Below the pieces are notes generated by a model, which saw only the letters and a program-made list of their open reading frames with translations, ran no database searches and had not been told where the DNA came from. DNA of 64,000 nucleotides, taken from an uncultured Pelagibacteraceae bacterium. GTDB lineage: Bacteria > Pseudomonadota > Alphaproteobacteria > Pelagibacterales > Pelagibacteraceae. The stretch is from contig CACDWM010000001.1 of the NCBI GenBank assembly GCA_902556505.1, positions 62,001-126,000 on the forward strand, given 5' to 3'. Made by a program: the position numbers and the translations under genes. Below, piece by piece: positions 49,831-64,000 of this stretch (position 1 is the first letter of the stretch; each line of letters opens with the position of its first letter).

Positions 49831-50627
49831 TAATTATCTTTTCCCATTATTTCTTCTTCCATATTCCAAATCATGGATAAAATTTCTTCTCTAGTAGATG
49901 AAAATTCTTTATTCTTTTTTATTTCTCTTAAATCTTTTGTAAGACCCATTTCTGCAAAAGGAAGATTATACTCTTTATGTATACGACCTGGTCTTGGCGC
50001 CATTACATATAATCTTTCTCCAAGTAACAAAGCTTCTTCAACTGAGTGTGTAATTAAGATAATAGTTTTTCCAGTTTCTTTCCAAATCTTTAAAACTAAA
50101 GACTGCATCTTTTCTCTTGTTAATGCATCTAACGCCCCTAATGGTTCATCCATTAAAATTAAATCAGGATCGTTTATTAAACATCTTGCAAGAGCAACTC
50201 TTTGCTGCATTCCACCTGATAATTGATATGTAGGTGTGTTACCAAAACCTTTAAGTCCAACTATATCTAACCACTCATCAACTTTCTTAGCTGTAACTTC
50301 AGGATCTTCTTTCTTCATCCTAAGTCCAAAATTTACATTTTCAGCTACCGTTAACCATTCAAACAAAGCACCTTGTTGAAATACCATTCCTCTTTCAACG
50401 CCAGGTCCATCAATTTCATTATTATTAAGTGTTATTTTTCCAGAGGTAGGTCTTAAAAATCCTGCGGTAATATTCAGTAAAGTTGTTTTTCCACAACCAG
50501 AAGGACCAAGTACTGTAAGCAATTCTCCTTTTTTTAAAGTAAAGCTTACGTCCTTTAAAGCATGGACTGTTTCTCCTTTAGGAGTTTTAAAAATCATGTT
50601 CAGATTTTGAGAAATCAGATCACTCAT
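49830..50627 (-). CDS. tauB: Taurine/sulfonate-type ABC transporter ATPase
   Basis: This 265-residue ATPase has Walker A GPSGCGKTT at residues 41-49, Q-loop VFQQGALFEWLTV, signature LSGGMQQRVALARCL, Walker B LILMDEPLGALD and the switch His in ILITHSVEEAL. The family is the nitrate/sulfonate/taurine (TauB/SsuB) group. It is between the binding protein and the permease genes in one operon. The terminator-like hairpin upstream should reduce its expression relative to tauA. Confidence 0.92.
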   Translation of the reverse strand: MSDLISQNLNMIFKTPKGETVHALKDVSFTLKKGELLTVLGPSGCGKTTLLNITAGFLRPTSGKITLNNNEIDGPGVERGMVFQQGALFEWLTVAENVNFGLRMKKEDPEVTAKKVDEWLDIVGLKGFGNTPTYQLSGGMQQRVALARCLINDPDLILMDEPLGALDALTREKMQSLVLKIWKETGKTIILITHSVEEALLLGERLYVMAPRPGRIHKEYNLPFAEMGLTKDLREIKKNKEFSSTREEILSMIWNMEEEIMGKDN

Positions 50628-50657
50628 TACTGCCTTATATTAGAAATTTGATAAAAA

Positions 50658-50691
50658 AAATAGGCACCAATTATAAAATCAGTGCCTATTT
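50658..50691 (-). terminator. intrinsic terminator between tauA and tauB
   Basis: Read on the minus strand, AAATAGGCAC pairs with GTGCCTATTT (10 bp) around a 14-base loop, and the descending arm runs into an eight-T tract. This is a good rho-independent terminator immediately after the binding-protein gene, 22 bases past its stop, inside the operon. Confidence 0.8.
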
Positions 50692-50713
50692 AAAAAGTTT
50701 TAAACCCTTAAAA

Positions 50714-51655
50714 TTATAAAGGTAAGAAACTAGTATCTACGTTTCCACCTGGAGTTCCCATTCCTTCTAAGAACTTATGTAGATTTCCACTTTCCATAGA
50801 TGTTTTAGTTTCTTCTGGAGTTAAAAATTTAAATCCACTTAAAGTATCTTTCATATCTGCAACTTTCATTTCAGATGCTTTAGACATTGCATTCATATCA
50901 CTTTTTCCTGCAGCATATCTAGCATTTGCTTCATGAGTTACTTCAATAAACGTTCTTAACATTCCTGGATTCTCTTTCATAAACTTGTCAGTTACAGAAG
51001 TAATATCGATACCTAAAATACCAGCATCTCTAGCTTCTTGAACTGTTAGAAGTCTTGAACCAACTGCAGTTGCAGCTTTGATAGAGTTACCACCAAATAA
51101 ACATGCCATTACAACATCGCCACTAACTAATGCAGCAGCACCTTCTTCAGGGTCCATTTGAATAATGTCCATTTTACCTCTGTCAGCACCAACAACTTTC
51201 ATACTTTCATCAAAAACGTATTCAGCCATAGTTCCTAATGGAACTGCAACTTTTTTACCTTCTAATTCTGTAGCGTTTGCTTTTGTAATTCCAGAAGCAT
51301 TAGATGTAACACATGTAGTTCCACCCATTCCGTATTCCATAGCAATATCAACTAATTTGATAGGTGCATTAGATTTTACAGCATTGATAAAAGGTACTAA
51401 TCCTTGTGAGTAAGAAATATCGATATCTCCTGCTAACATTGCATCAGTCATTGCTCCACCATTAGTGAAATTTGTCCATTTTACTGGAACACCAAGAGCT
51501 TTAGCAAAATTCTTTTTCTGCATGTCTTCTAAATTTGGGCTTGGCCATTCTAGAAAGTATGCAACTCTAACTTCATTTGCAGCTGAATTAGCAACTGAAA
51601 TTGATAGGTTAAGTGCAAAAATAGATCCTAGAATAAAACTTAGTATTTTTTTCAT
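50714..51655 (-). CDS. tauA: Taurine-type ABC substrate-binding protein
   Basis: This 313-residue periplasmic protein has a signal peptide (LGSIFALNLSISVANSA, cleaved near residue 25). The mature protein has the TauA/SsuA pattern: VRVAYFLEWPSPN, GGAMTDAMLAGDIDISYSQGLVPF and GKKVAVPLGTMAEYVFDES. Taurine as ligand is supported by the Tpa-like aminotransferase and alanine dehydrogenase genes divergent from it. Another small sulfonate remains possible. Confidence 0.85.
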   Translation of the reverse strand: MKKILSFILGSIFALNLSISVANSAANEVRVAYFLEWPSPNLEDMQKKNFAKALGVPVKWTNFTNGGAMTDAMLAGDIDISYSQGLVPFINAVKSNAPIKLVDIAMEYGMGGTTCVTSNASGITKANATELEGKKVAVPLGTMAEYVFDESMKVVGADRGKMDIIQMDPEEGAAALVSGDVVMACLFGGNSIKAATAVGSRLLTVQEARDAGILGIDITSVTDKFMKENPGMLRTFIEVTHEANARYAAGKSDMNAMSKASEMKVADMKDTLSGFKFLTPEETKTSMESGNLHKFLEGMGTPGGNVDTSFLPL

Positions 51656-51836
51656 TTATTCCCCTATGTTTAATTAATTAAATTCTGGATATTTAAATTC
51701 AAATTGACTCTGAAGTAAAACAAAAAAAGAAACATATACAATCCTTGGTTGTGTCAATAATGTGGTAGTTAATCCATTTATTTTAGTCTAAAGAGGCCTT
51801 AAGATTAAATTAAAATATTTTATAGAAAGATTTTTT

Positions 51837-53183
51837 ATGAGCACACAAAACAAAACAGCAATTCCAAATTCTTTAAATGAGCATTGGATGCCATTTACAT
51901 CCAACAAAGATTTTAAAGAAAACCCGAGATTAATAGTTGAAGCTAAGGGTGTGTACTTAAAAAACCATCAAGGACAAACTCAAATTGATGCAAGCTCAGG
52001 ATTATTTTGTAATCCATTAGGCCATGGTAGAGAAGAAATTATTGAAGCAATAACTAACCAATTAAAAACTTTGGATTATTGTCAACCTTTCCAACAAGGT
52101 TTTGGTGGTTCGTTTGAACTAGCAACTAGAATTTCAAAACATACTCCAGGAAACTTAAATAGAATGTTTTATACTATTTGTGGTTCTACTGCTGTTGAAA
52201 CGGCAATCAAAATTGCAATCGCTTATCACAGAGCAAGAGGAGATAGTCAAAGATTTAGATTTGTTGGTAGAGAAAGAGGTTACCATGGAATGAATATTGG
52301 AGCGACTTCAGTTGGAGGTATGGTCAACAATGTTAAAACTTTTGCCAGTGTTTTAATGCCGGGTGTTGTTCATATGAGGCATACACATTTACCAGAACAT
52401 AAATTTGTAAGTGGTCAGCCAGAGACAGGTATAGAGTTAGCAGAAGATTTAGAAAGAATTTGTATGAATTTTGGAGCTGAAAATATTGCAGCTTGTATTG
52501 TAGAGCCTATCGCAGGATCAACGGGCACATTGGTTCCACCTAAAGGATATTTACAAAGATTAAGAGAGATTTGTGACAAACATGGAATACTTCTAATTTT
52601 TGATGAAGTAATTACAGGTTGGGGAAGAACTGGATCTCCATTTGCATCACAAGAGTATGGAGTGACTCCAGACATGATGACAATGGCAAAAGCTACTACT
52701 AATGGAATTAGTCCAATGGGAGTTGTAGCATGTAAAGAAGATATTTATGATGCTATCGCAGAAAATGCTCCAAAAGGAACAATCGAATTATTCCATGGAT
52801 ATACATATTCAGGAATTCCAATTTCTGTAGCTGCTGGTTTAGCTGTACAAGATATTATTGAAAAGGATGATATTTTTAATAGAGCAAAAAATTTGGCACC
52901 TTATTTCCAAGAAGGTTTAATGTCTTTAAAAGATATTGATGTTGTTGATAACATTAGAGGATACGGAATGATGGGTGGTATAGATATTGTTATGGATAAA
53001 AAACCAGGTGCAGCAGGATTAACATGTTTTAAACATTGTTATGAAGCTGGAGTGAATTTCAAAGCTACAGGTGATTGTTTAATCATTGCCCCAATGTTTA
53101 TTTGTGAAAAAAAACATATTGATGAAATTATTGAAAAACTTCGAACTGGAATAACGAATTACGCAAAAAGTAAAAAGAATTAA
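51837..53183 (+). CDS. tpa: Class III aminotransferase, probable taurine:pyruvate or omega-amino acid:pyruvate
   Basis: This 448-residue PLP aminotransferase has NEHWMPFTSNKDF near the N-terminus, CGSTAVETAIKIA near residue 114, YHGMNIGATSVGG, FDEVITGWGRTG near residue 256 and the PLP lysine in MTMAKATTNGISPMG near residue 285. This set matches beta-alanine/taurine:pyruvate aminotransferases. With TauABC encoded divergently and alanine dehydrogenase directly downstream, conversion of taurine plus pyruvate to sulfoacetaldehyde plus alanine is the best reading. Beta-alanine or another omega-amine is the alternative. The Tpa assignment is context-based. Confidence 0.78.
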   Translation: MSTQNKTAIPNSLNEHWMPFTSNKDFKENPRLIVEAKGVYLKNHQGQTQIDASSGLFCNPLGHGREEIIEAITNQLKTLDYCQPFQQGFGGSFELATRISKHTPGNLNRMFYTICGSTAVETAIKIAIAYHRARGDSQRFRFVGRERGYHGMNIGATSVGGMVNNVKTFASVLMPGVVHMRHTHLPEHKFVSGQPETGIELAEDLERICMNFGAENIAACIVEPIAGSTGTLVPPKGYLQRLREICDKHGILLIFDEVITGWGRTGSPFASQEYGVTPDMMTMAKATTNGISPMGVVACKEDIYDAIAENAPKGTIELFHGYTYSGIPISVAAGLAVQDIIEKDDIFNRAKNLAPYFQEGLMSLKDIDVVDNIRGYGMMGGIDIVMDKKPGAAGLTCFKHCYEAGVNFKATGDCLIIAPMFICEKKHIDEIIEKLRTGITNYAKSKKN

Positions 53184-53192
53184 TTTTCGTAT

Positions 53193-54311
53193 ATGAAAAT
53201 TGGAGTTCCTAAAGAAATTAAACCACAAGAAAATAGAATTGGTTTAACACCAGATAGTGTTAAAACTTTAGTTTCAGAAGGTCATGAAGTTTTAATTGAA
53301 AACAACGGTGGATTTGAAGCTGGTTTTGAGAATGATCAATACATAAAAGCTGGTGCTAAAATTGCTAATACAGCCTCTGATATTTTTAGCGATGCAGAAA
53401 TAATTGTTAAAGTTAAAGAACCTCAAAAAGTAGAAGTTGATATGATTAGAGAAAATCAAATCGTATATACTTATCTCCATTTAGCTGCAGCAAAAGAACT
53501 AACCGAAGGATTAATAAAATCTAAAAGTATTAATATAGCTTACGAAACAGTTACTGATGATAATGGAAGACTACCTTTGCTTGCTCCGATGAGTGCTGTT
53601 GCAGGAAGAATGTCCGTACAAGCAGGAGCTCATTGTTTGGAGAAAAACCAAAGTGGAAGAGGTTTACTTTTAGGTGGCGCACCAGGTGTTACAGGAGGAA
53701 CAGTAGTTATTTTAGGTGGAGGAGTTGTTGGAGAAAATGCTGCAGTGATTGCAACTGGTATGCAAGCAAAAGTTCATATTGTAGATAAATCTGATGCTAG
53801 ATTAAAACAACTTGTTGAAATGTTTGGAGATAAAATTATTCCAGAACAAAGTGATAAAACAGATTTAGATAAACTAGTTGCTGAGGCAGATTTATTAGTT
53901 GGTGGAGTATTAATTCCAGGTGCAGAAGCACCAAAATTAATTACCAAAGAAATGATTAAAAGAATGAAAAGAGGTTCAGTAATTGTTGATGTTGCTATAG
54001 ACCAAGGTGGCTGTGTAGAAACTAGCAAACCAACAACACATGGTGATCCAACTTATATAGTTGATGATGTAGTGCATTATTGTGTAGCGAACATGCCTGG
54101 TGGTGTTCCCAGAACATCAACATTAGCATTAAATAATGCAACATTACCTTTCTTAGTTAAGCTTGCTAATAAAGGTTATAAAAAAGCACTCGGTGAAGAT
54201 AAAAACTTTTTAGCAGGGTTAAATGTTCATAAAGGTCAAGTAACTTACAAAGCAGTTGCTGATGTATTTGGTCACAAATTTGTTGAACCTGGAGAAGCTA
54301 TCAAACATTAG
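53193..54311 (+). CDS. ald: Alanine dehydrogenase
   Basis: This 372-residue NAD+-dependent enzyme deaminates L-alanine to pyruvate and ammonium. It begins MKIGVPKEIKPQENRIGLTP, has the catalytic Lys in VKVKEPQ near residue 74 and His in YTYLHLAAA near residue 95, then VVILGGGVVGENAA for NAD+ binding and VADVAIDQGG-like VIVDVAIDQGG. It is ten bases after the aminotransferase gene, so the alanine formed there is recycled to pyruvate while releasing ammonium and NADH. It is a clean full-length match. Confidence 0.96.
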   Translation: MKIGVPKEIKPQENRIGLTPDSVKTLVSEGHEVLIENNGGFEAGFENDQYIKAGAKIANTASDIFSDAEIIVKVKEPQKVEVDMIRENQIVYTYLHLAAAKELTEGLIKSKSINIAYETVTDDNGRLPLLAPMSAVAGRMSVQAGAHCLEKNQSGRGLLLGGAPGVTGGTVVILGGGVVGENAAVIATGMQAKVHIVDKSDARLKQLVEMFGDKIIPEQSDKTDLDKLVAEADLLVGGVLIPGAEAPKLITKEMIKRMKRGSVIVDVAIDQGGCVETSKPTTHGDPTYIVDDVVHYCVANMPGGVPRTSTLALNNATLPFLVKLANKGYKKALGEDKNFLAGLNVHKGQVTYKAVADVFGHKFVEPGEAIKH

Positions 54312-54313
54312 AA

Positions 54314-56758
54314 ATGGAAAAAAACTATCCTTCAAACCCAAAGGTAGTTGTAATAGGGGGTGGAGTAGCTGGTACCTCTTGCGCTTACCATTTAGCTAAA
54401 TTTGGATGGAAAGATGTTATTTTATTAGAAAGAGATCAATTAACATCTGGTACAACCTGGCATGCTGCAGGACTAATAGGACAATTAGGGGCAACTTCTA
54501 CAATTACTAAATTACGAAAATATTCTTTAGATCTTTACAAAGATCTAGAAAAAACAACAGGCTTGTCTACTGGTCTAAAACAAAACGGAGCAATAACAGT
54601 TGCATCATCTAAAGAAAGAATGCAGGAGTTATTAAGGCAAGCCACAACAGCACAACTATCTGATGTTGAGGTAGAGGTTTTAAACAAAGAGAGAATAAAA
54701 GAATTATATCCAGTATTAAAAAACGAAGATCTAGTAGGCGGAGTTTATATGCCAAAAGATGGTCAGGCCGATCCTGTTGGCGTTACGAATGTATTGGCTA
54801 AAGCTGCTAGAATGTTAGGTGTGCAAATATTTGAGAAGTCACTAGTAAAAAAAATTTTAGTAAAAAATAAAAGAATATGCGGTGTTGAAACTTCTCAAGG
54901 AAAAATTGATTGTGAATATGTAGTTTTAGCTACAGGAATGTGGTCTAGACAAATTGGAGAAGATATTGGTGTTAGTGTTCCGCTATATCCTAATGAGCAC
55001 TTCTATGTGATCACAGAGCCAATGAAAGATCTTCCCAAAGATTTACCTGTTTTAAGGGATTACAATGCGTGCCTTTATTTAAAAGAGGATGCTGGAAAAA
55101 TGTTAGTTGGAATTTTTGAACCTAATGCAAAACCTGCTTTTAAAGATAGTGGCAGAGTCCCTGATGATTTTTCATTTGGAGAATTTCCTGATGATTTTGA
55201 TCATTTCGAGCCTTACCTTGAAAAATCTTTTCACAGACTCCCAATGTTAGAAAACGCAGGTATAAGAAAATTTTTTTCGGGACCCGAGTCATTTACACCA
55301 GATACCCAATATTTACTTGGAGAAACACCAGAAGTTAAAAATCTTTATACATGTTGTGGTTTTAATAGTATCGGAATAGCAAGTTCTGGAGGTGCAGGTA
55401 GAGTTACTGCTGAATGGATGATTAACGGTCATATAAATGAAGATTTATTTTCTTTAGATATAAAAAGATTTCAAAAGTTTCATTCTTCTTCAAAATTTAT
55501 CATGGATAGGGTTACTGAAACCTTAGGGGATTTATATGGGATGCATTGGCCTTATAAACAACACGAAACTTCAAGAAATGAAAAATTACTTCCTTATCAT
55601 GATGAGTTAAAAAAAGCTGGTGCGTGTTTTGGTGTTACAGGAGGTTTTGAAAGACCTATGTGGTACTCTTTAAACGGTGAAGAACCAAAATATAATTATA
55701 GTTTTAATTATCAAAATTGGTACCCATCTGCAAAACATGAAACCTTAAATGCTAGAAAAAATGTTGGACTTTTTGATTTTTCAACTTTTTCTAAATTTGA
55801 TTTAAAAGGTGAGAAGGTTCACAGCGATTTACAAAAAATCTGTACAGCTAACATTAAAAATGGAATTGGCAAATCTACCTATACGCACATGCTAAATGAG
55901 GACGGTGGTATTGAAACAGATGTAACAGTTGTCTGTATTGATAAAAATTATTTTAGAATAGTTAGTTCAGCAGTAACTAGAGAAAGAGATAAATTTCATA
56001 TTTTAAAATATTTATCTGAAGATGTTAAATTTATCGATGTTACAGAAGAGATTTGCTGTCTTGGTTTATTTGGTCCTAAAAGTAGAGATATGATTCAAAA
56101 GATTAGTGATGAAGATTATTCATCAGAAAATTTTCAATTTGGATCAGGAAAAAATGTATTGATTGAGAATATAAAAATTTGGGCACAAAGAATATCTTAT
56201 GTTGGTGAACTTGGCTTTGAATTATATGTAAATAAAAATGATGCTTTGGATTTATATAAAATTTTAACTCATGAAGGCAAAAACTTTGGCTTATCTCATT
56301 GCGGTATGCACGCAATGGATATAATGAGAATGGAAAGTGGCTTTTTACATTGGGGCCATGATATTTCACCAGAAGAAAATCAGTATCAAGCAGGTTTAAA
56401 TTTTACTATTAGTTATAAAAAAAATGTTAATTTTATAGGTAAAGACGCATTGTTAAAAATTAAAGACAAACCTTTAGCAAAGAAAATGATGATGTTTACA
56501 TTAAAAGATAGTAAACCAGGTCAACCTTTATTGTTACATGAAGAGCCTATATATTCAGATGATAAAATCATTGGAAGAACAACTTCAGGAAATTATTCAT
56601 TCTGCTTTGATAAAAATTTATCATTTGGCTATGTTAATTCAGGAAACACGATAGATACGCTTAAAGATAAAAACTTGTTCATAGAAGTAGAGAAGATTAA
56701 ATATCCAGTCGAAATTCTTTCAAAACCACTAAATACAAAAGATTTTAGAAAAATTTAG
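54314..56758 (+). CDS. Dimethylglycine/sarcosine dehydrogenase-like flavoprotein with GcvT domain
   Basis: This 814-residue enzyme has an N-terminal DAO-type FAD domain (GGGVAGTSCAYHLAKFG near residue 15 and the FAD-linking His in GTTWHAAGLIG near residue 49). A linker and a C-terminal GcvT-type tetrahydrofolate domain follow (about 430-810, with VGELGFELYV and CGMHAMDIMRMESG). Such enzymes demethylate N-methyl amines and transfer the carbon to folate. Dimethylglycine or sarcosine are the usual substrates. Two bases after ald in a taurine-type operon, N-methyltaurine is a further possibility. Nothing appears truncated. Confidence 0.88.
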   Translation: MEKNYPSNPKVVVIGGGVAGTSCAYHLAKFGWKDVILLERDQLTSGTTWHAAGLIGQLGATSTITKLRKYSLDLYKDLEKTTGLSTGLKQNGAITVASSKERMQELLRQATTAQLSDVEVEVLNKERIKELYPVLKNEDLVGGVYMPKDGQADPVGVTNVLAKAARMLGVQIFEKSLVKKILVKNKRICGVETSQGKIDCEYVVLATGMWSRQIGEDIGVSVPLYPNEHFYVITEPMKDLPKDLPVLRDYNACLYLKEDAGKMLVGIFEPNAKPAFKDSGRVPDDFSFGEFPDDFDHFEPYLEKSFHRLPMLENAGIRKFFSGPESFTPDTQYLLGETPEVKNLYTCCGFNSIGIASSGGAGRVTAEWMINGHINEDLFSLDIKRFQKFHSSSKFIMDRVTETLGDLYGMHWPYKQHETSRNEKLLPYHDELKKAGACFGVTGGFERPMWYSLNGEEPKYNYSFNYQNWYPSAKHETLNARKNVGLFDFSTFSKFDLKGEKVHSDLQKICTANIKNGIGKSTYTHMLNEDGGIETDVTVVCIDKNYFRIVSSAVTRERDKFHILKYLSEDVKFIDVTEEICCLGLFGPKSRDMIQKISDEDYSSENFQFGSGKNVLIENIKIWAQRISYVGELGFELYVNKNDALDLYKILTHEGKNFGLSHCGMHAMDIMRMESGFLHWGHDISPEENQYQAGLNFTISYKKNVNFIGKDALLKIKDKPLAKKMMMFTLKDSKPGQPLLLHEEPIYSDDKIIGRTTSGNYSFCFDKNLSFGYVNSGNTIDTLKDKNLFIEVEKIKYPVEILSKPLNTKDFRKI

Positions 56759-56807
56759 TTAATTTTAATTTTATTGTGTTTTAGTCAATTAGTTGGTTTA
56801 ATATGTT

Positions 56808-57023
56808 GTGAAAAAAAACGATCAAGAAACATCATTACTAAATACTGATATTGCTACAAATAAAGATTTTGAAATAGATAAGATTAAAACTACAAATGTA
56901 AATATTTTACTAAATAGAGTTCGATTAGATCAAAAAAGAACTTTAAAAAAAAGAATTGTTTTTTCAATTATTCTAGCTGGTTTAGTTAGTTCGTTAGCTA
57001 TTTATTTTATTGTTTATTTTTGA
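56808..57023 (+). CDS. Small single-pass membrane protein (tail-anchored), paralogue 2
   Basis: This 71-residue protein starts with GTG; the nearby ATG is out of frame and closed at once. It has an acidic-to-basic N-terminal part, the pattern TNVNILLNRVRLDQKRTLKKR, and one C-terminal membrane helix (about residues 49-70). The match to the 46698-46895 protein in the NV-LxxR-K-KR region and the tail helix shows common origin. Its function is unknown. It lies upstream of tRNA-Met with a 64-base gap that carries the tRNA promoter. Confidence 0.7.
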   Translation: MKKNDQETSLLNTDIATNKDFEIDKIKTTNVNILLNRVRLDQKRTLKKRIVFSIILAGLVSSLAIYFIVYF

Positions 57024-57044
57024 ATTTGATTTAAAAAAAGTTTA

Positions 57045-57072
57045 TTGAAACAATAAAGATTTGTATTATAAA
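57045..57072 (+). promoter_or_regulatory. probable sigma-70-type promoter of tRNA-Met and gpt-like gene
   Basis: TTGAAA (57045-57050) and TATAAA (57067-57072) are separated by 16 bases. The -10 ends 15 bases before the first base of the tRNA, which fits transcription beginning just upstream of it. Confidence 0.5.
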
Positions 57073-57087
57073 CCATTTGTCAATTAA

Positions 57088-57164
57088 GGCGGGGTAGCTC
57101 AGTTGGTTAGAGCGCGGGACTCATAAGCCCGAGGTCAGTGGTTCGATCCCACTTCCCGCTACCA
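57088..57164 (+). tRNA. tRNA-Met (CAT), elongator type
   Basis: This 77-base cloverleaf starts GGCGGGGTAGCTCAG and ends with an encoded CCA. The anticodon CAT is at 57122-57124 in loop CTCATAA. The D-arm (GCTCAGTTGGTTAGAGC) and paired first base pattern are those of an elongator rather than an initiator, and the T-arm AGTGG-TTCGATC-CCACT is regular. The base pair closing the anticodon loop is an A-G mismatch (position 31-39). An Ile2 tRNA also has CAT but has a different acceptor sequence. Confidence 0.95.
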
Positions 57165-57170
57165 AAAACT

Positions 57171-57689
57171 ATGAAAGATATTTATATAACTTGGGAAGAT
57201 TATCATAAAAAGATAGAGCAATTAGCTAAAAAAATTCATGATGATAATTTAAAGTTTAATCAAGTAATTTGTATTGCAAAAGGTGGATTAAGAGTTGGAG
57301 ATATTTTTAGTAGACTTTTTAATGTCCCTCTAGCTATCTTATCTGTTGAGTCTTATCATGGTGATAGTGACGATATAAAAAATCAACAAGGACAGTTTAC
57401 TTTTTCAAGAGATTTAGCAAAAACTACTCCAAATTTGGGATCGCATGTTTTATTAGTTGATGATTTAGCTGATTCTGGAAAAACTTTAATAAAAAGTATT
57501 AAATGGTTAGAACATTTTTATGGTTTTTATTTTGATGAAAAAATCAAAACTGCAGTTTTATGGCATAAATCAACTTCAAAATTTGAACCTGATTATTCTG
57601 TAGATTACTTAAAAGATTCTCCTTGGATACATATGCCTTTTGAGAAATATGAAACTACAAATATTAAAGATTTTAAGTTTGAAAAATAA
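57171..57689 (+). CDS. Purine phosphoribosyltransferase (Gpt-like)
   Basis: This 172-residue enzyme has the type I PRT PRPP-binding loop VLLVDDLADSGKTL near residue 95 and an N-terminal GGLRVGDIFSRLF stretch like xanthine/guanine phosphoribosyltransferases. It salvages a purine base with PRPP in the cytosol. The ATG at 57171 is only six bases after the tRNA CCA end, and an upstream in-frame start would lie inside the tRNA, so I reject it. After tRNA 3' processing the mRNA would be nearly leaderless. It ends one base before the convergent guaC stop. Confidence 0.84.
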   Translation: MKDIYITWEDYHKKIEQLAKKIHDDNLKFNQVICIAKGGLRVGDIFSRLFNVPLAILSVESYHGDSDDIKNQQGQFTFSRDLAKTTPNLGSHVLLVDDLADSGKTLIKSIKWLEHFYGFYFDEKIKTAVLWHKSTSKFEPDYSVDYLKDSPWIHMPFEKYETTNIKDFKFEK

Positions 57690-57690
57690 A

Positions 57691-58725
57691 TTATTTAATT
57701 AAACTATCATTAAACTGATTTGAAACTCTAACAAAAGTTGTGCATTTGCTTAATTGTTTAAGTGAAGGAGCGCCAACATAAGTACAGCTACTTCTTACAC
57801 CGCCAAGAATATTTAAAATAGTATCGTTTATTTTGCCTCTATATTTTACTCTTACTTTTCTTCCTTCACTACTTCGATAATCCGATAATCCGCCATAGTG
57901 TTTTTTATTAGCAACTTCAGAACTAGATCCATAAAACTCTATATATTTTTCTCCATTAACTTTAACAATTTTACCATTTCCCTCATCATGTCCAGCTAAC
58001 ATACCGCCAAGCATTACAAAATCTGCTCCACCTCCAAAACCTTTAGCAACATCACCAGGACAAGTGCACCCACCATCTGCAATTACATGCGCACCAAGTC
58101 CATGAGCAGCATCAGCACATTCGATTACTGCACTTAATTGTGGATAACCAACTCCAGTTTGAATTCTTGTTGTGCAAACACTTCCGGGTCCTATGCCAAC
58201 TTTAACGATGTCTGCTCCACTTAGTACTAATTCTTGAGTCATATCAGCTGTTACAACATTACCTGCAATTATTGTTTTAGTTGGGTATTTATCTCTTACT
58301 GATTTAATAAAATTGGTGAAATGTTCTGTGTAACCATTTGCAACATCAATACAAATAAATTTAAAAAAACTAAATTCTTTTAATACTTTATCTAAATTTT
58401 GAAAATCTTCTTTTTTAATACCAACGCTGAGTGCAATATTAGGAAAGATTTTTTTAATATTTTTATTTTGTTTAAGTTTTTTTACATCATGTTGTTTTGT
58501 TAATGATGTAATCATTCCATATTCATTTAGTTTTTCAGCAACACCTAATTCTCCAACACCATCCATGTTTGCTGCCATTATCGGAATACCCGACCATTCA
58601 TTCTTGCTATATTTGAATCTATAAGTTCGTAGAAGATTTACGTCCTTACGACTTTTTAATGTACTTCTTTTAGGTCTAAACAGTACGTCTGAATAATCTA
58701 ACTTAAGCTCTTCCTCAATTCTCAT
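57691..58725 (-). CDS. guaC: GMP reductase (IMPDH/GMPR family)
   Basis: This 344-residue TIM-barrel enzyme reduces GMP to IMP with NADPH, linking guanine and adenine nucleotide pools. The catalytic Cys is in GIGPGSVCTTRIQTGVGYPQ near residue 181; IADGGCTCPGDVAKG and the phosphate loop GGADFVMLGGMLAGH follow. There are no CBS domains, unlike most IMP dehydrogenases, and the length fits GuaC. The C-terminal SSCTYVGAPSLKQL is GuaC-like. It is downstream of apt on the same strand, in a purine-salvage group. Confidence 0.92.
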   Translation of the reverse strand: MRIEEELKLDYSDVLFRPKRSTLKSRKDVNLLRTYRFKYSKNEWSGIPIMAANMDGVGELGVAEKLNEYGMITSLTKQHDVKKLKQNKNIKKIFPNIALSVGIKKEDFQNLDKVLKEFSFFKFICIDVANGYTEHFTNFIKSVRDKYPTKTIIAGNVVTADMTQELVLSGADIVKVGIGPGSVCTTRIQTGVGYPQLSAVIECADAAHGLGAHVIADGGCTCPGDVAKGFGGGADFVMLGGMLAGHDEGNGKIVKVNGEKYIEFYGSSSEVANKKHYGGLSDYRSSEGRKVRVKYRGKINDTILNILGGVRSSCTYVGAPSLKQLSKCTTFVRVSNQFNDSLIK

Positions 58726-58774
58726 TGGTCATTAAGTTATAATCATAAATATTAATTTCAAACATTATATGGCC

Positions 58775-58783
58775 TGTGGATAA
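58775..58783 (-). promoter_or_regulatory. single perfect DnaA box upstream of guaC
   Basis: The minus strand reads TTATCCACA, matching the DnaA-box consensus TTATNCACA exactly, 50 bases before the guaC start in the 70-base apt-guaC gap. A lone box cannot be an origin; it may regulate guaC or occur by chance. Confidence 0.35.
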
Positions 58784-58795
58784 GTTTTTTGCTTT

Positions 58796-59323
58796 CTAAT
58801 GCCCTGGAAATTCAATTAAATTCTCAACTTTATAATTATTTTTTACTAAATTGTCTGATCCACCTAGATCAAACAGGTTTATTACAAATACAAATGCTGC
58901 AACCTTGCCTTTTGAAATTTCAATTAATTTTGCGGCTGCTTCAGCCGTACCTCCAGTTGCAATTAAATCATCTATAATTAGAACTTCATCTTTTTCATTT
59001 ATAGAGTCTTTGTGTACTTCAATCGTTGCAGTTCCATATTCAAGCTCAAAATCTACTGAATGAACATCTGCTGGCAATTTATTTTTTTTTCTTAACATAA
59101 TAAATGGTTTGTTAAGTACAAATGACACAGCAGATGCAAATACAAATCCTCTAGACTCAATGGCTGCTATTTTTGTAAAATTATACTTTTTTGATCTTTC
59201 AACAATTTGATTAATTGTTTCTGCAAATGCATTTTCATCTTTTATTAATGTAGTTATATCTCTGAATAAAATACCTTTTTTTGGATAATCAGGTATAGAT
59301 CTAATATAATCTTTTAAGTTCAT
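58796..59323 (-). CDS. apt: Adenine phosphoribosyltransferase
   Basis: This 175-residue enzyme turns adenine plus PRPP into AMP. The start YIRSIPDYPKKGILFRDITTLI, IESRGFVFASAV and the PRPP loop VLIIDDLIATGGTAEAAAKLI near residue 120 are all typical. Its neighbour mtnP releases adenine from methylthioadenosine and shares a 41-base divergent promoter region, so adenine recycling is coordinated. It is full length, ending in FPGH-type residues LIEFPGH. Confidence 0.95.
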   Translation of the reverse strand: MNLKDYIRSIPDYPKKGILFRDITTLIKDENAFAETINQIVERSKKYNFTKIAAIESRGFVFASAVSFVLNKPFIMLRKKNKLPADVHSVDFELEYGTATIEVHKDSINEKDEVLIIDDLIATGGTAEAAAKLIEISKGKVAAFVFVINLFDLGGSDNLVKNNYKVENLIEFPGH

Positions 59324-59364
59324 AATAATTAAATATAGAAGTATAAATAAATAGATTTTTAATT

Positions 59365-60237
59365 ATGACAACAAATAAATTAGCAATTATAGGTGGTAGT
59401 GGTCTTTATGATGTTGAGGAATTTAAAGATAGGGAGTTACTTGATTTAGAAACACCCTGGGGAAAACCATCTGATCAGATTTTAAAAACCAAATATAATG
59501 GCAAGGAAGTTTATTTTTTACCAAGACACGGAAGGGGACATTTTGTTTCTCCTTCAAATATTAATTTTAGAGCAAATATAGATGCACTTAAACAATTAGG
59601 TGTAACAGATATTGTTTCAGTATCAGCTGTTGGCTCTCTTAAAGAAAATTTACCTCCTGGAAAATTTGTAATTGTAGACCAATTTATAGATAGGACTTTT
59701 GCAAGAAATAAAACTTTTTTTGATGATGAGATTGTTGCTCATGTATCAATGGCACACCCAACCTCTAACGGATTAATGAATGCATGCGAAAAAGCAATTA
59801 AAAAATCAAACATAGATTATCAAAGAAATGGAACGTATGTAGTTATGGAAGGGCCTCAATTTTCTACATTAGCAGAGTCTAATTTATATAGATCTTGGAA
59901 AGCAGATGTAATTGGAATGACGAATATGCCTGAAGCAAAATTGGCAAGAGAGGCAGAAATTAGATATGCATCGGTTTCTATGGTTACAGATTTTGATTGC
60001 TGGCATCCAGATCATGAAAATGTTGATGTTCAGCAAGTAATTAAAGTCTTATTAGGTAATGCTGAAAAAGCAAAAGTTATGATTAAAAATTTAATAGATA
60101 ATTTTGAAGATCATATTGAGCCAAACGATCCAACTAATAATTGTTTAGATGTAGCAATTATTACTGCTCCAGAAAAAAGAACAAAAAAGACTATAGATAA
60201 ATTAAAAAATGTAGCAGGTAGAGTTTTAAATAAATGA
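59365..60237 (+). CDS. mtnP: S-methyl-5'-thioadenosine phosphorylase
   Basis: This 290-residue enzyme splits methylthioadenosine (MTA) with phosphate into adenine and methylthioribose-1-phosphate. GGSGLYDVEEF near residue 10, the phosphate-binding PRHGRGH near residue 53, VVMEGPQFSTLAES near residue 160 and TDFDCWHPDHENV near residue 208 are family signatures. The Asp pair favours an adenosine-type base. It overlaps mtnA by four bases. Activity on 5'-deoxyadenosine is plausible for such enzymes, but is not shown here. Confidence 0.94.
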   Translation: MTTNKLAIIGGSGLYDVEEFKDRELLDLETPWGKPSDQILKTKYNGKEVYFLPRHGRGHFVSPSNINFRANIDALKQLGVTDIVSVSAVGSLKENLPPGKFVIVDQFIDRTFARNKTFFDDEIVAHVSMAHPTSNGLMNACEKAIKKSNIDYQRNGTYVVMEGPQFSTLAESNLYRSWKADVIGMTNMPEAKLAREAEIRYASVSMVTDFDCWHPDHENVDVQQVIKVLLGNAEKAKVMIKNLIDNFEDHIEPNDPTNNCLDVAIITAPEKRTKKTIDKLKNVAGRVLNK

Positions 60238-61304
60238 GAATAGAGGGAAAAGAGTATCGAACTATTTGGTTTGACAATAATGTTGTTAAGATTATTGATC
60301 AAACAAAACTTCCTCATCAATTTATAATTAAAGAACTTAAATCTGTAAATGATGCAATAAATGCAATTAAAGTAATGGAAGTAAGAGGAGCACCTTTAAT
60401 AGGAGGAACAGCTGCTTATGGTATAGCCTTGGCAGCTCAAGAAAATAATGATCCAGAATTTTTAAAAAAAAGTGCAGAAAAATTAATTCAATCAAGACCG
60501 ACTGCTATTAATTTAAAATGGGCTGTAGACCGAATGACAAAAAAATTAGCGGGTATTAACGGTGATCAAATATTAAGTATTGCCTTAAATGAGGCAAAAG
60601 AAATATGTGATGAAGATGAAAAGTTTTGTGAAAATATTGGTATTAATGGACTAAAAATAATTGAGGAAATTTACAACAAAAAAAAAGATACAGTAAATAT
60701 ATTAACACATTGTAATGCGGGTTGGTTAGCAACAATCAATTGGGGTACAGCCACATCACCAATTTATCATGCACACAAAAAAGGTATACCAGTGCACGTA
60801 TGGGTAGATGAAACAAGGCCAAGAAATCAAGGTGCCAATTTAACCTCATATGAATTAAATGAAGAAGAAATTCCCAATACTATTATCGCTGATAATACAG
60901 GTGGTATTTTAATGCAGAGAGGAGAAGTTGATATGTGTATTGTAGGAACTGATAGAACTTTGTCCAATGGAGACGTTTGCAATAAAATTGGAACATATCT
61001 TAAAGCATTAGCCGCTCATGATAATAATGTTCCTTTTTATGTTGCTCTTCCAAGCTCTACAATAGATTGGAACATTAAAGATGCAAAAGATATTCCGATA
61101 GAAGAGAGAAGCTCAGAGGAATTGTCTCATATAGAAGGTATTGATGAAAATAATAAAATTAAAAAAGTTTTGATATATCCAAATAAAAGTAAAGCAATGA
61201 ATTTAGCATTTGATGTTACACCTGCAAAATATGTTACAGGTTTAATTACTGAAAAAGGGATTTCGGATGCTTCTTCCGAAGGTCTAAAAAAATTATTTAA
61301 ATAA
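60234..61304 (+). CDS. mtnA: Methylthioribose-1-phosphate isomerase
   Basis: This 356-residue enzyme isomerises methylthioribose-1-phosphate to methylthioribulose-1-phosphate. The catalytic Cys is in ILTHCNAGWLAT near residue 163, and the catalytic Asp in VGTDRTLSNGDVCNKIGTY near residue 243. VRGAPLIGGTAAYG near the start is also typical. It overlaps mtnP (ATGA). No mtnB, mtnC or mtnD genes of the classical methionine salvage follow; instead a convergent aldolase/SDR fusion gene ends one base away. Confidence 0.94.
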   Translation: MRIEGKEYRTIWFDNNVVKIIDQTKLPHQFIIKELKSVNDAINAIKVMEVRGAPLIGGTAAYGIALAAQENNDPEFLKKSAEKLIQSRPTAINLKWAVDRMTKKLAGINGDQILSIALNEAKEICDEDEKFCENIGINGLKIIEEIYNKKKDTVNILTHCNAGWLATINWGTATSPIYHAHKKGIPVHVWVDETRPRNQGANLTSYELNEEEIPNTIIADNTGGILMQRGEVDMCIVGTDRTLSNGDVCNKIGTYLKALAAHDNNVPFYVALPSSTIDWNIKDAKDIPIEERSSEELSHIEGIDENNKIKKVLIYPNKSKAMNLAFDVTPAKYVTGLITEKGISDASSEGLKKLFK

Positions 61305-61305
61305 G

Positions 61306-63339
61306 TTATCTAAGTGAAGCAGCTATATTTCCACCATCAACAGTTAGTACTGCTCCAGTTGTTTTTTTTGATACGGCTAAATGAAAAAAGGCTTTTGCAA
61401 CATCTTCAGCTTTTACTTCGTTTAAAAGTAAGTTTCCTTTCATATATTCATCCATTGAAACTTCTCTGGCCTTAGCTCGAGATTTAATCATTCCATCATT
61501 TAAAAGACCACTTCTAATTCTGTCAGCATTAACTCCATTTGATCTAATGCCAAGTGATCCATAATCAACCGCATATTGTTTGCATAAACTTAATAAAGCT
61601 GTTTTTGGAAGACCATAAGGACCAAAGTTTTTTCCAGGATTTACTGATTGTTTTGAAATATTAAATAATAAGCATCCCTGTATATTTTGTTTTTTCATTA
61701 TTTTAATAGTTTCTGAAGCACAATTTTGATGAGAAAAAAAATTATCTTCGAAACTTTCTCTTAAAATTTTATCATCAACTTCAGCAATAGATCCACCAAC
61801 CGCTGTTCCAGCATTTGATATTAAAATATCTATACCACCATATTGTTCACTTATTATTTTAAAAGCATTTTTTACGCTATTTTTATTTCTTACATCACAG
61901 TGCAAACATAAATCTTTAATTTTACTTTGCATTTCTTTTACTTTTTTAGAATCGTAATCAAGCAATACAATTTCTGCACCATAACTTTTAAATAGTTTAT
62001 AAGTGGCTGAACCAATTGCACCAAATCCACCAGTTATTACAACAATATTTCCTTGAAGAATTTTTTTAGCTTTTTTAATTTTAGCTTGTTCTAGCGACCA
62101 ATATTCAACATCAAATAAATCTTTTTCAGGTATAAACTTGTATTTTGTTGTTTCTTCAACTGATGAAATTACTCTGGCATTTGTTTCAGTTAGGTCTCCA
62201 GCTATTTTTGAAGCATTTAAACTATCACCCACACTAAATAAACCAACGTTTTGTACCAAGATTACCCTAGGAGATGTATCTAACATTGTTTTTTTACCTT
62301 TAACTTTTTTCTTATTCGTATTGAAATACTTCACATATTTTTTTCTATAATCTTTAAAACTTTTCTTTGCAATTTTTTTGAAATCTTCAATACTTGAATT
62401 TTGTTTTGGAGTGATTACTAATGGAAATGGTTTTACTCTTATTACATGATCTGGTGTAGCAGTTCCAATACCAGAATATCTTTTGACTTCTTTACCATTT
62501 ATAAAATAATCTAAGGTTTTGTTTGACCTAAAATTAAGTATAAATTTCTGATCTTTTTTTTCAGTTAATAAACCTCTTAAAATTGGTGCAATTTCATGTG
62601 GCTTAAACTTTGTATTATAATTTTTGATTTGCTTTATTTTTTTTCGTTTTAATTTTCTAATTGTTTTCTCTGCAATAGAAACATATTTAATCATTAAGTC
62701 ATATGATTTTTTAGCATCATTATCAAAAGTGAATATTCCATGGTTTAAAAGTATTAAACAGTTAATATTTGGATTTTTATTATAAACCTCATTAATTTTT
62801 TGAGCCAAACCAAATCCAGGCATTACGTAAGGTACAATACTAACCTTGGTTCCAAAAATTTTTTTACAAAGATCTTTACCATTTGGCCTATTTGTTACAT
62901 CCATAATTGCATCAGAATGCGTGTGATCAACAAATTTAAAAGGTAAAAAGGCATGCAAAAAAGTTTCTACAGATGGGTTAGGTGACTTAATATCTATTAA
63001 GTTTCTTTTTTGATAAGCAACCATATCTTCATCACTTAAATATTTTTTATTTTTAAGAGCTAAAAGTGGATTTAATTTCACTGCAGGTAAACCAGCTGGT
63101 TCTATTTCAGCCATGTCCCAACCACTTCCTTTAACACAGAGTACCTCGTAATTTTTGCCATCAATATCTTTAATTGAGGTTTTTACAGATGTATTTCCAC
63201 CTCCATGAAGAACAAGTTCACTATTTCTTCCCAATAGTCTTGTTGTATAAACTCTTAAAGCCATATCTTTTGAATGACCAAGTTTTGTATACTTTTTGAT
63301 ATATTTTTTTGCTTCTAAATTTGACCAATTGTTTTTCAC
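61306..63339 (-). CDS. Fused class II aldolase/short-chain dehydrogenase
   Basis: This 677-residue protein has an N-terminal class II aldolase/adducin domain (about 1-240: GGNTSVK near residue 47, zinc-binding FVDHTHSDAIMD and LLNHGIF). A linker follows, then a C-terminal SDR domain (about 430-677: GGFGAIGSATYKLF, ISNAGTA and the Tyr-Lys pair in YGLPKTA). The family is annotated as a rhamnulose-1-phosphate aldolase/dehydrogenase. No rha or fuc kinase genes are adjacent; MtnP and MtnA are convergent, suggesting cleavage of methylthioribulose-1-phosphate or 5-deoxyribulose-1-phosphate to DHAP and an aldehyde, which the SDR domain could reduce or oxidise. The start is GTG. Confidence 0.88.
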   Translation of the reverse strand: MKNNWSNLEAKKYIKKYTKLGHSKDMALRVYTTRLLGRNSELVLHGGGNTSVKTSIKDIDGKNYEVLCVKGSGWDMAEIEPAGLPAVKLNPLLALKNKKYLSDEDMVAYQKRNLIDIKSPNPSVETFLHAFLPFKFVDHTHSDAIMDVTNRPNGKDLCKKIFGTKVSIVPYVMPGFGLAQKINEVYNKNPNINCLILLNHGIFTFDNDAKKSYDLMIKYVSIAEKTIRKLKRKKIKQIKNYNTKFKPHEIAPILRGLLTEKKDQKFILNFRSNKTLDYFINGKEVKRYSGIGTATPDHVIRVKPFPLVITPKQNSSIEDFKKIAKKSFKDYRKKYVKYFNTNKKKVKGKKTMLDTSPRVILVQNVGLFSVGDSLNASKIAGDLTETNARVISSVEETTKYKFIPEKDLFDVEYWSLEQAKIKKAKKILQGNIVVITGGFGAIGSATYKLFKSYGAEIVLLDYDSKKVKEMQSKIKDLCLHCDVRNKNSVKNAFKIISEQYGGIDILISNAGTAVGGSIAEVDDKILRESFEDNFFSHQNCASETIKIMKKQNIQGCLLFNISKQSVNPGKNFGPYGLPKTALLSLCKQYAVDYGSLGIRSNGVNADRIRSGLLNDGMIKSRAKAREVSMDEYMKGNLLLNEVKAEDVAKAFFHLAVSKKTTGAVLTVDGGNIAASLR

Positions 63340-63424
63340 AGTTACAACCTCAGCGAAGTATTATAATAGTTTTTTGTTTGAAAGAAGCAAAAAATTTGAT
63401 TAGTAAGGTTTCATCAAGGTTATT

Positions 63425-64000
63425 ATGACAAAAGTTGGTGAACACATTACCCTAGATATTATTGGAACTACAAAAGAATATGATCCTGTTTTATTTGAAA
63501 AGGTAATTCATGATATTGCAAAAGCTGCTAAAGTTACAATTCTTAATATTTCAAAATATAAATTTGAACCACAAGGTTTTACAATTTTAGCTTTATTGGC
63601 TGAAAGTCACATTAGCTTTCATACTTTTCCAGAAAAGGGGATTATTAGTTTTGATTTTTTTACTTGTGGAAAGGTAAACCCTTCCGTTGCAATAGATATT
63701 ATTAAAAAAGAATTCGAACATAAAAGAATAGTTAAAAAAGAGTTTAACAGAGATACAAAATCTCTTTATAATGACATTTATAGTTCGCCAGGTTTACAAA
63801 AGTCATATGTTGTAAACGATGTATTAGAGGACTTTAAATCTAAAGTAGGTCAACATATTGAAATACTAGATTTAGAGCAGTTCGGAAAATCATTATTTAT
63901 AGATGGAGAAATTCAAGTTGCTTCAACAGATGAACATTTGTACAGCTCAACTTTTGTTGGTTCTGGTTTAGATTTAAATAAAGACAATGAAAGGGCTGCT
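63425..64000 (+). CDS. speD-speE: S-adenosylmethionine decarboxylase/spermidine synthase fusion (3' end outside window)
   Basis: The first 192 residues are in the window. Residues 1-115 are a prokaryotic AdoMet decarboxylase: the self-cleavage site LAE/SHIS gives pyruvoyl from Ser61, with His66 and Cys81 (FTCG) also present. From about residue 138, GQHIEILDLEQFGKSLFIDGEIQVASTDEHLYSS is the N-terminal strand region of spermidine synthase. The reading frame is continuous, so the protein should make decarboxylated AdoMet and transfer its aminopropyl group to putrescine, releasing MTA. It is divergent from the aldolase/SDR gene across 85 bases, beside the MTA-salvage genes. Confidence 0.88.
   Translation, partial: MTKVGEHITLDIIGTTKEYDPVLFEKVIHDIAKAAKVTILNISKYKFEPQGFTILALLAESHISFHTFPEKGIISFDFFTCGKVNPSVAIDIIKKEFEHKRIVKKEFNRDTKSLYNDIYSSPGLQKSYVVNDVLEDFKSKVGQHIEILDLEQFGKSLFIDGEIQVASTDEHLYSSTFVGSGLDLNKDNERAA

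Follow-up and report, generated by a model that had tools for sequence, protein, structure and literature searches.

Organisation of the locus

The window analysed here is a stretch of 64,000 nt from contig CACDWM010000001.1 of an uncultured Pelagibacteraceae bacterium of the SAR11 group (assembly GCA_902556505.1, 73.6% complete). The subject of this report is a gene of the window that encodes a class II aldolase fused to a short-chain dehydrogenase (SDR), together with its neighbours mtnP, mtnA and speDE (Table 1). A reading made beforehand from the sequence alone (the sequence-only reading) had described mtnP, mtnA and a convergent aldolase/SDR fusion; open reading frames (ORFs) and curated families confirmed all three. 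The reading frames of mtnP and mtnA overlap by 4 nt, and a single nucleotide separates the end of mtnA from the low end of the fusion gene. Among proteins of solved structure, the top relatives of MtnP were RsfP and S-methyl-5′-thioadenosine (MTA) phosphorylases, and MtnA was related to 1t9k, 6a34 and 2yrf.

Two flanking features had been overlooked in the sequence-only reading. The gene that begins beyond the fusion encodes a fused SpeD-SpeE protein (S-adenosylmethionine decarboxylase and aminopropyltransferase), which is 346 aa long where complete, in the related locus L077. MTA is an unavoidable by-product of polyamine synthesis, and the SpeDE reaction is the step that produces it, so the fusion sits between the MTA consumers mtnP and mtnA and the MTA maker. 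Upstream of mtnP lie the purine salvage genes apt and guaC; Apt salvages the adenine freed by MtnP, and its gene flanks the mtnP side of the locus, opposite speDE. It adjoins mtnP in 33 of the 34 fetched SAR11 stretches that hold mtnP, the remaining one (L092) stopping at a contig edge.

Table 1. Features of the locus (positions in the window; family cut-offs in brackets).
Feature	Position	Strand	Assignment
apt, adenine phosphoribosyltransferase	58796..59323	-	NF002634 212.9 bits (170)
mtnP, S-methyl-5′-thioadenosine phosphorylase, 290 aa	59365..60237	+	NF006492 448.8 bits (437); TIGR01694 311.7 (274.85)
mtnA, S-methyl-5-thioribose-1-phosphate isomerase, 356 aa	60234..61304	+	TIGR00512 419.8 bits (279)
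fused class II aldolase/short-chain dehydrogenase, 677 aa, GTG start	61306..63339	-	NF006192 896 bits (639)
aldolase domain, residues 1-230	62650..63339	-	structure match 3m4r; conserved H139, H141, H200, E125
middle region, residues 231-424	62068..62649	-	no Pfam match at 0.001; confidently folded in model
SDR domain, residues 425-677	61306..62067	-	many SDRs at Z 32-33.5; N533, S562, Y575, K579, D461
divergent intergenic region fusion/speDE, 85 nt	63340..63424	.	
fused SpeD-SpeE gene, start only (runs off the window)	63425..64000	+	TIGR03330 98.6 bits (75.65), then start of SpeE

An Rfam search of positions 50000-64000 at gathering thresholds returned tRNA only. A purine phosphoribosyltransferase-like ORF was noted at 57138-57689; its GTG start falls within the tRNA-Met gene (57088-57164), and its real start is probably downstream.

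The fused protein

Besides the fusion, eight other scanned members passed the model NF006192, "bifunctional aldolase/short-chain dehydrogenase". Against TIGR02632, the equivalog for rhamnulose-1-phosphate, the fusion scored 437.8 bits, under the cut-off of 567.75. Pfam assigned Aldolase_II to residues 31-224 and adh_short_C2 to residues 442-670. A structure model calculated with 48 homologues gave a predicted local distance difference test (pLDDT) of 91.5 and a predicted template modelling score (pTM) of 0.91, and superseded a poor model from 14 sequences (pLDDT 67). Residues 1-228 of the model matched the class II aldolase domain 3m4r (Z 32.7, root mean square deviation 1.5, 212 aligned residues, 43% identity).

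Invariant in all 57 aligned fusions were E125, H139, H141, H200, the motifs K70-G-S-G and N509-A-G, N533, Y575, K579 and D461; position 562 was Ser in 56 and Thr in one. From comparison with FucA and DrdA, H139, H141 and H200 presumably bind the metal and E125 is presumably the base, and we take N533, S562, Y575 and K579 to be the catalytic tetrad of the SDR, with D461 setting a preference for NAD. This last residue suggests use of NAD(H) by the SDR domain.

Structure searches said little about the middle region, which also occurs without an SDR in an aldolase of the lsr locus of Sinorhizobium meliloti. There, on a plasmid (L229, 7001-8251), a 416-aa aldolase-plus-middle relative directly follows lsrB in an lsr transport cluster for autoinducer-2 (AI-2); this protein may act on phospho-AI-2.

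Occurrence and linkage in SAR11

The source genome and 120 SAR11 relatives were searched (121 genomes). Full-length fusions were found in 14 of them, G081 and G111 being excluded for matches confined to the SDR part, and mtnP and mtnA were each found in 55. All 14 fusion genomes carried both mtnP and mtnA, and the 66 genomes without mtnA held no fusion. In two genomes of another family (G077 and G115, 50-51% identity), mtnP, mtnA and the fusion were directly adjacent on one strand.

A second set consisted of 80 named GTDB fusion loci (the best 80 of 364 relatives), all titled Pelagibacter or Pelagibacteraceae; eight apparently duplicate contigs of the 121 genomes, and the two sets are not fully independent. 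Among these best 80 of 364, speDE was carried by 77, and mtnA lay within the fetched flank in 70 (within 100 bp in 29); in four of the other ten the flank on the mtnA side was shorter than 4.3 kb.

Several SAR11 genomes (L078, L092, L101, L108, L110) carry an insertion of 0.8-1.8 kb at the joint of mtnP and mtnA; the proteins encoded there (clusters c38, c43 and c107) appear, judged by sequence look only, to be secreted and resemble hydrolases. Six loci (L085-L087, L104, L105, L275) have in common an island of about 9 kb after mtnA and before the fusion or aldolase position, which divides mtnA from the fusion in L085-L087 and holds, again by sequence look, sulfatase-like, TRAP (tripartite ATP-independent periplasmic) transporter-like and hydrolase-like genes.

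An unfused aldolase in the same position

The region after mtnA was inspected in 20 of the 41 genomes that have mtnA and lack the fusion. In 17 of these 20 stretches it held a stand-alone aldolase (cluster c8) of about 215 aa, without an SDR and on the mtnA strand, which overlapped mtnA in 12 of the 17. The aldolase was directly followed by speDE in 16, the seventeenth stopping at a contig edge, and in eight mtnP, mtnA, aldolase and speDE formed one tight four-gene run. A search with this aldolase matched 42 of the 121 genomes and gave 41 with an orthologue; G024, whose sole match was a different paralogue of 24% identity, was dropped, and the orthologue of G045 spans two contigs. Of the 41, 39 have mtnA; the other two are G001, which has mtnP, and G005. 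The 55 mtnA genomes thus divide into 14 with the fusion, 39 with the stand-alone aldolase, none with both and two with neither (G031 and G044, whose contigs stop short of the position). Four single-contig genomes that are 99-100% complete, mtnA-positive and fusion-negative (G327, G417, G218 and G495) all carry the aldolase there. The stand-alone form was absent from the best 80 of 364 named fusion loci.

The DNA of the window aligned with that of L093, an aldolase locus, at 87-88% up to the stop of mtnA and again from just before speDE, the intervening genes being different. On a tree of MtnP, MtnA and SpeDE with 38 tips, the fusion and aldolase states needed nine changes (L077 against L093 is one example), compared with a mean of 11.4 after shuffling, and values as low were obtained in 49 of 500 shuffles; this tree was read without branch supports, and part of the changes could instead reflect recombination among the flanking genes. 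The likeliest explanation appears to be that close SAR11 relatives have repeatedly swapped, in place, two aldolases of equivalent function.

Near relatives of the stand-alone aldolase are FucA and DrdA, the latter (6btd, 2.7e-38) being the aldolase for 5-deoxyribulose-1-phosphate. It also matched NF053831, a model of haloarchaeal ribulose-1-phosphate aldolase, below the cut-off (169-177 of 300 bits), which, together with the purine-salvage neighbours apt and guaC, could indicate a pathway mainly for unsubstituted ribulose-1-phosphate from ordinary nucleosides, with cleavage to dihydroxyacetone phosphate (DHAP) and glycolaldehyde and formation of glycolate by the SDR. MtnP and MtnA, however, pass MTA-specific equivalogs and the linked SpeDE reaction yields MTA, and we regard such a nucleoside route as quite unlikely.

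Occurrence beyond SAR11

The fusion is not peculiar to SAR11. A profile search of 385 alphaproteobacterial genomes gave 81 matches, namely 65 full-length close members, five partial ones and 11 of lower score (E 1e-102 to 1e-121), the last labelled RhaEW-like by score alone. The mtnA gene was present in 181 of the 385 genomes and in 63 of the 65 with a full-length fusion (66 of 70 with the partial ones), as against one of the 11 RhaEW-like; co-occurrence of mtnA with the 65 full-length fusions gave a Fisher value of 1.9e-21, uncorrected for kinship. Where the positions of both genes were listed (48 of the 65), they lay within 500 bp of each other in 23 genomes, within 5 kb in four and farther apart in three. 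On the same strand were 22 of the 23 close pairs, the source genome being the exception.

Forty loci were fetched from the 64 fusion genomes other than the source. In 25 of them the fusion had mtnA and/or mtnP close by on its own strand (mtnA in 21, mtnP only in four), several in the order mtnP-apt-mtnA-fusion. The sequence-only reading had proposed a survey of SAR11 genomes for conserved linkage; linkage of mtnPA and the fusion was found to be conserved in SAR11, and also in many other Alphaproteobacteria.

On a Pararhizobium plasmid (L225/L270) and in G563 (L311), genes for an ATP-binding cassette (ABC) transporter, mtnK and mtnA accompany the fusion. The mtnK-mtnA arrangement represents this pathway in its kinase form. 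The Pararhizobium locus was also seen to hold a DXS-like/transketolase-like pair and a RubisCO-like gene; conceivably, methylthioribose or 5-deoxyribose is taken up in these bacteria and meets two parallel fates. In six further loci (L245, L246, L257, L260, L262, L265), mtnP, mtnA and the fusion lie near genes that we take, from a look at their sequences, to encode cytochrome bc1 subunits (clusters c11, c9 and c7).

Other routes for MTA, and rhamnose

The sequence-only reading had stated that no mtnBCD genes follow mtnPA. None lies beside the fusion within the window, and mtnD, which encodes acireductone dioxygenase (ARD; PF03079), was found in none of the 121 genomes, its controls responding in 5 of 14 (mtnB, mtnC and mtnE were not searched genome-wide). 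Canonical methionine salvage through MtnB, MtnC and MtnD was rejected on this result for mtnD, mtnC not having been searched. The MTA-isoprenoid shunt was rejected likewise, RubisCO-like protein (RLP; PF00016) being found in none of the 121 genomes, again with controls responding in 5 of 14.

That the aldolase-fold domain is an MtnB-type dehydratase feeding an unrecognised branch of methionine salvage seems scarcely credible. Of 207 families compared with the fusion, the 25 best included no mtnB model, its stand-alone replacement reached 59-69 bits against the 137 demanded by the MtnB model TIGR03328, and mtnD, the gene searched for in the 121 genomes (mtnC was not), was not found.

A role in rhamnose catabolism (RhaEW), or action on another imported deoxysugar phosphate with incidental adjacency to mtnA, would fit the layout of the protein, which is shared with RhaEW, and the occurrence of some NF006192 members in sugar-transport clusters. 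The sequence-only reading had found no neighbours in support of it; that observation stands, and is extended by a search for rhaA that found none in the 121 genomes, with positive controls responding. Queries for rhaI, rhaM, rhamnulokinase, mtnK and RLP gave no match in 124 SAR11 sequences (2.2 Mb, partly overlapping) or in the 40 alphaproteobacterial loci, with controls matching in both sets; for rhaI and the kinase the search did not extend to whole genomes. The score under the TIGR02632 cut-off speaks against rhamnose as well, as do the alternation with a FucA/DrdA-like aldolase in one position and the gene context: all six RhaEW-type loci compared adjoin rhaI, and mtnA accompanies the present subtype in nearly all genomes and the RhaEW-like proteins, classed by score alone, in one. 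Rhamnose was rejected as the principal role on the score, the failure to find rhaA in the 121 genomes (rhaI and the kinase having been sought in the 124 sequences and 40 loci) and the presence of mtnA rather than rhaI as neighbour, and the alternative as a whole is very unlikely.

Proposed pathway

The locus probably encodes a DHAP shunt for MTA and 5′-deoxyadenosine in which the last two steps, aldol cleavage and NAD-dependent removal of the aldehyde, are carried on one chain. SpeDE would release MTA during spermidine synthesis, and radical-SAM enzymes would release 5′-deoxyadenosine. Phosphorolysis by MtnP would give adenine, for salvage by Apt, and 5-(methylthio)ribose-1-phosphate or 5-deoxyribose-1-phosphate, which MtnA would isomerise to the ribulose-1-phosphate. 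The metal-dependent aldolase domain (H139/H141/H200, E125) is predicted to cleave this to DHAP and (methylthio)acetaldehyde or acetaldehyde. Cleavages of this type lie far to the side of the sugar, with an equilibrium constant typically of about 1e-4 according to the accessible text of PMC6079011, so that removal of the aldehyde should drive the reaction; immediate clearance by the NAD(H)-type SDR domain would pull it forward, and channelling of the substrate within the fusion is possible. For the fusion, we infer substrate, redox direction and product.

RhaEW, the characterised fusion of the same architecture, is NAD-dependent: neither DHAP nor lactate was formed without NAD+, and NADH was inactive (PMC3870299, in the part available). 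By analogy, oxidation by the SDR to (methylthio)acetate or acetate with formation of NADH is predicted, and is the rather more probable outcome if the aldolase step is right. The described DHAP shunts, in the accessible text of PMC10986504 and PMC5893883, employ an alcohol dehydrogenase and yield 2-methylthioethanol or ethanol. The same aldolase step might accordingly be followed here by a reductive one, in which NADH converts the aldehyde into 2-(methylthio)ethanol or ethanol, the outcome in E. coli and Rhodopseudomonas. Alcohol and butanediol dehydrogenases are among the structural neighbours of the SDR domain, and SDRs more often interconvert alcohols and carbonyls, which makes reduction to the alcohol possible. 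This outcome is nevertheless unlikely, if worth keeping in mind, in view of the oxidative RhaEW and of D461, which suggests NAD(H); SAR11 bacteria are, in addition, aerobic, a lifestyle that would favour oxidation.

Several observations weigh against an oxidative DHAP shunt at this locus, in addition to the usual chemistry of SDRs. Most mtnA-bearing relatives in SAR11 (39 of 55) use an aldolase without an SDR, which implies that the SDR step is dispensable or provided elsewhere. Genus g1 has the fusion on the strand opposite mtnA in each of its 12 loci, and there it lies outside the mtnPA operon. Many of the 121 assemblies are incomplete, just 24 having at least 90% completeness and at most 5% contamination. 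In the class sample, ARD exceeded its cut-off in 8 of 65 fusion genomes and in 8 of 80 fusion-negative mtnA genomes (six of each at E <1e-15); being equally rare with and without the fusion, ARD does not single it out by its absence.

Linkage has exceptions, too. Among the 48 alphaproteobacterial genomes with both positions listed, mtnA was on a different contig in 18, and 15 of the 40 fetched loci showed neither mtnA nor mtnP, some of them (L244, L253) being cut by the contig end. An NF006192 member of Rhizobium leguminosarum (L227) stands beside glpD/glycerol-3-phosphate dehydrogenase and sugar ABC transport genes, without mtnA, and passes NF006195 as well, which suggests a second function within the fusion family. 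The fusion of G150 (L254) likewise lies beside a sugar ABC transporter and other sugar genes, without mtnA, and groups in the fusion tree with the f2 sequences of the SAR11 order (long branches, 87/47). The family NF006192 is therefore not single-purpose. Loci linked and not linked to mtn genes were intermixed in this tree (12 changes against a shuffled mean of 19.2, bootstrap unsettled), so context marks no single clade. A phylum sample gave 70 fusion matches, 60 of them outside the class; mtn linkage was seen in none of the 19 loci fetched from these 60, and was seen in the one in-class locus fetched (L311). The mtn linkage of the fusion looks alphaproteobacterial.

The DHAP shunt that the sequence-only reading had proposed is supported by these comparisons: searches of the 121 genomes yielded neither mtnD nor rhaA, and the linkage is conserved. 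Its suggested connection with ethylene chemistry was dropped; no supporting evidence was found, no gene search having been aimed at an ethylene route, and ethylene formation by the DHAP-shunt route is described as exclusively anaerobic in the accessible text of PMC5893883.

Relation to the literature

SAR11 bacteria are among the most abundant in the ocean and depend on reduced sulfur. In the SAR11 literature consulted, in the parts available, disposal of MTA is not covered, and the locus proposes a route; the main text of the SAR11 polyamine paper, as far as accessible, names MTA once and an aldolase never (PMC8437039). A bifunctional aldolase/SDR was met in the literature searched, of which part of the text was available, in the rhamnose paper PMC3870299 alone; an earlier description is possible, most subscription papers lying outside the search. 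The fusion does not appear in MTA metabolism in the accessible text of PMC10986504, PMC6079011, PMC8102628, PMC10418091, PMC6302742, PMC5893883 and PMC12632272, nor in that of the SAR11 and other papers PMC8437039, PMC11698098, PMC12405394 and PMC12636525.

What is proposed is a known pathway in a new, apparently widespread form that uses a known fusion architecture, a proposal well supported by comparative genomics. It would offer a pathway for NF006192, a large annotated family without pathway assignment. The aldehyde step of the shunt in Rhodospirillum rubrum and Rhodopseudomonas palustris is given as a putative alcohol dehydrogenase only (PMC5893883, accessible text), and the SDR of the fusion is a candidate for this step. 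The proposal also leads to a prediction, open to experiment, on the organosulfur product that cells release. The wider picture, an oxidative DHAP-shunt branch spread over many Alphaproteobacteria including SAR11, with the fusion and the DrdA-like aldolase as cassettes swapped between mtnA and speDE, is put forward tentatively, at somewhat less than even chances; on that picture, close SAR11 relatives would release different methylthio-C2 products, an acid or an aldehyde/alcohol, from the same MTA.

Comparison with known systems

Known forms of the DHAP shunt combine MtnP, or a nucleosidase with MtnK, with MtnA and Ald2/DrdA (extraintestinal pathogenic E. coli, Rhodospirillum rubrum, Rhodopseudomonas palustris and drdKIA of Bacillus thuringiensis). 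The present locus resembles them in having MtnP, MtnA and, linked to these, a class II aldolase with the metal-binding His and catalytic Glu residues intact; DHAP and an aldehyde are the expected products. It differs in that the aldolase, joined to an SDR, is of a longer and different class II type and may not be orthologous to Ald2/DrdA, that the SAR11 fusion adjoins the MTA-producing speDE, and that the aldehyde step is in the same chain and probably oxidative, whereas the described shunts use a separate alcohol dehydrogenase. The DrdA/FucA-type stand-alone aldolase of SAR11 occupies the same position before speDE, without an SDR, and the two never occur together in the 121 genomes.

With RhaEW (TIGR02632; Caur_2283 of Chloroflexus aurantiacus, YuxG of Bacillus subtilis) the fusion has in common the order aldolase-middle region-SDR over the full length, an NAD-type SDR and the metal and Tyr/Lys residues. 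Unlike RhaEW, it falls under the TIGR02632 cut-off and has mtnPA instead of rhaI as neighbours. Its identity to plasmid RhaEW-type sequences is 27-30%, Caur_2283 and YuxG themselves not being part of that comparison. E125, present in 57 of 57 fusions, is Asp in five of the six RhaEW-type sequences, whose loci all contain rhaI, and N533 is replaced in them by Leu or Met. The name of the NF006192 model (PRK08324) gives no pathway; the alphaproteobacterial members sampled here, 63 of 65 in genomes with mtnA, are tied to the catabolism of MTA and 5′-deoxyadenosine.

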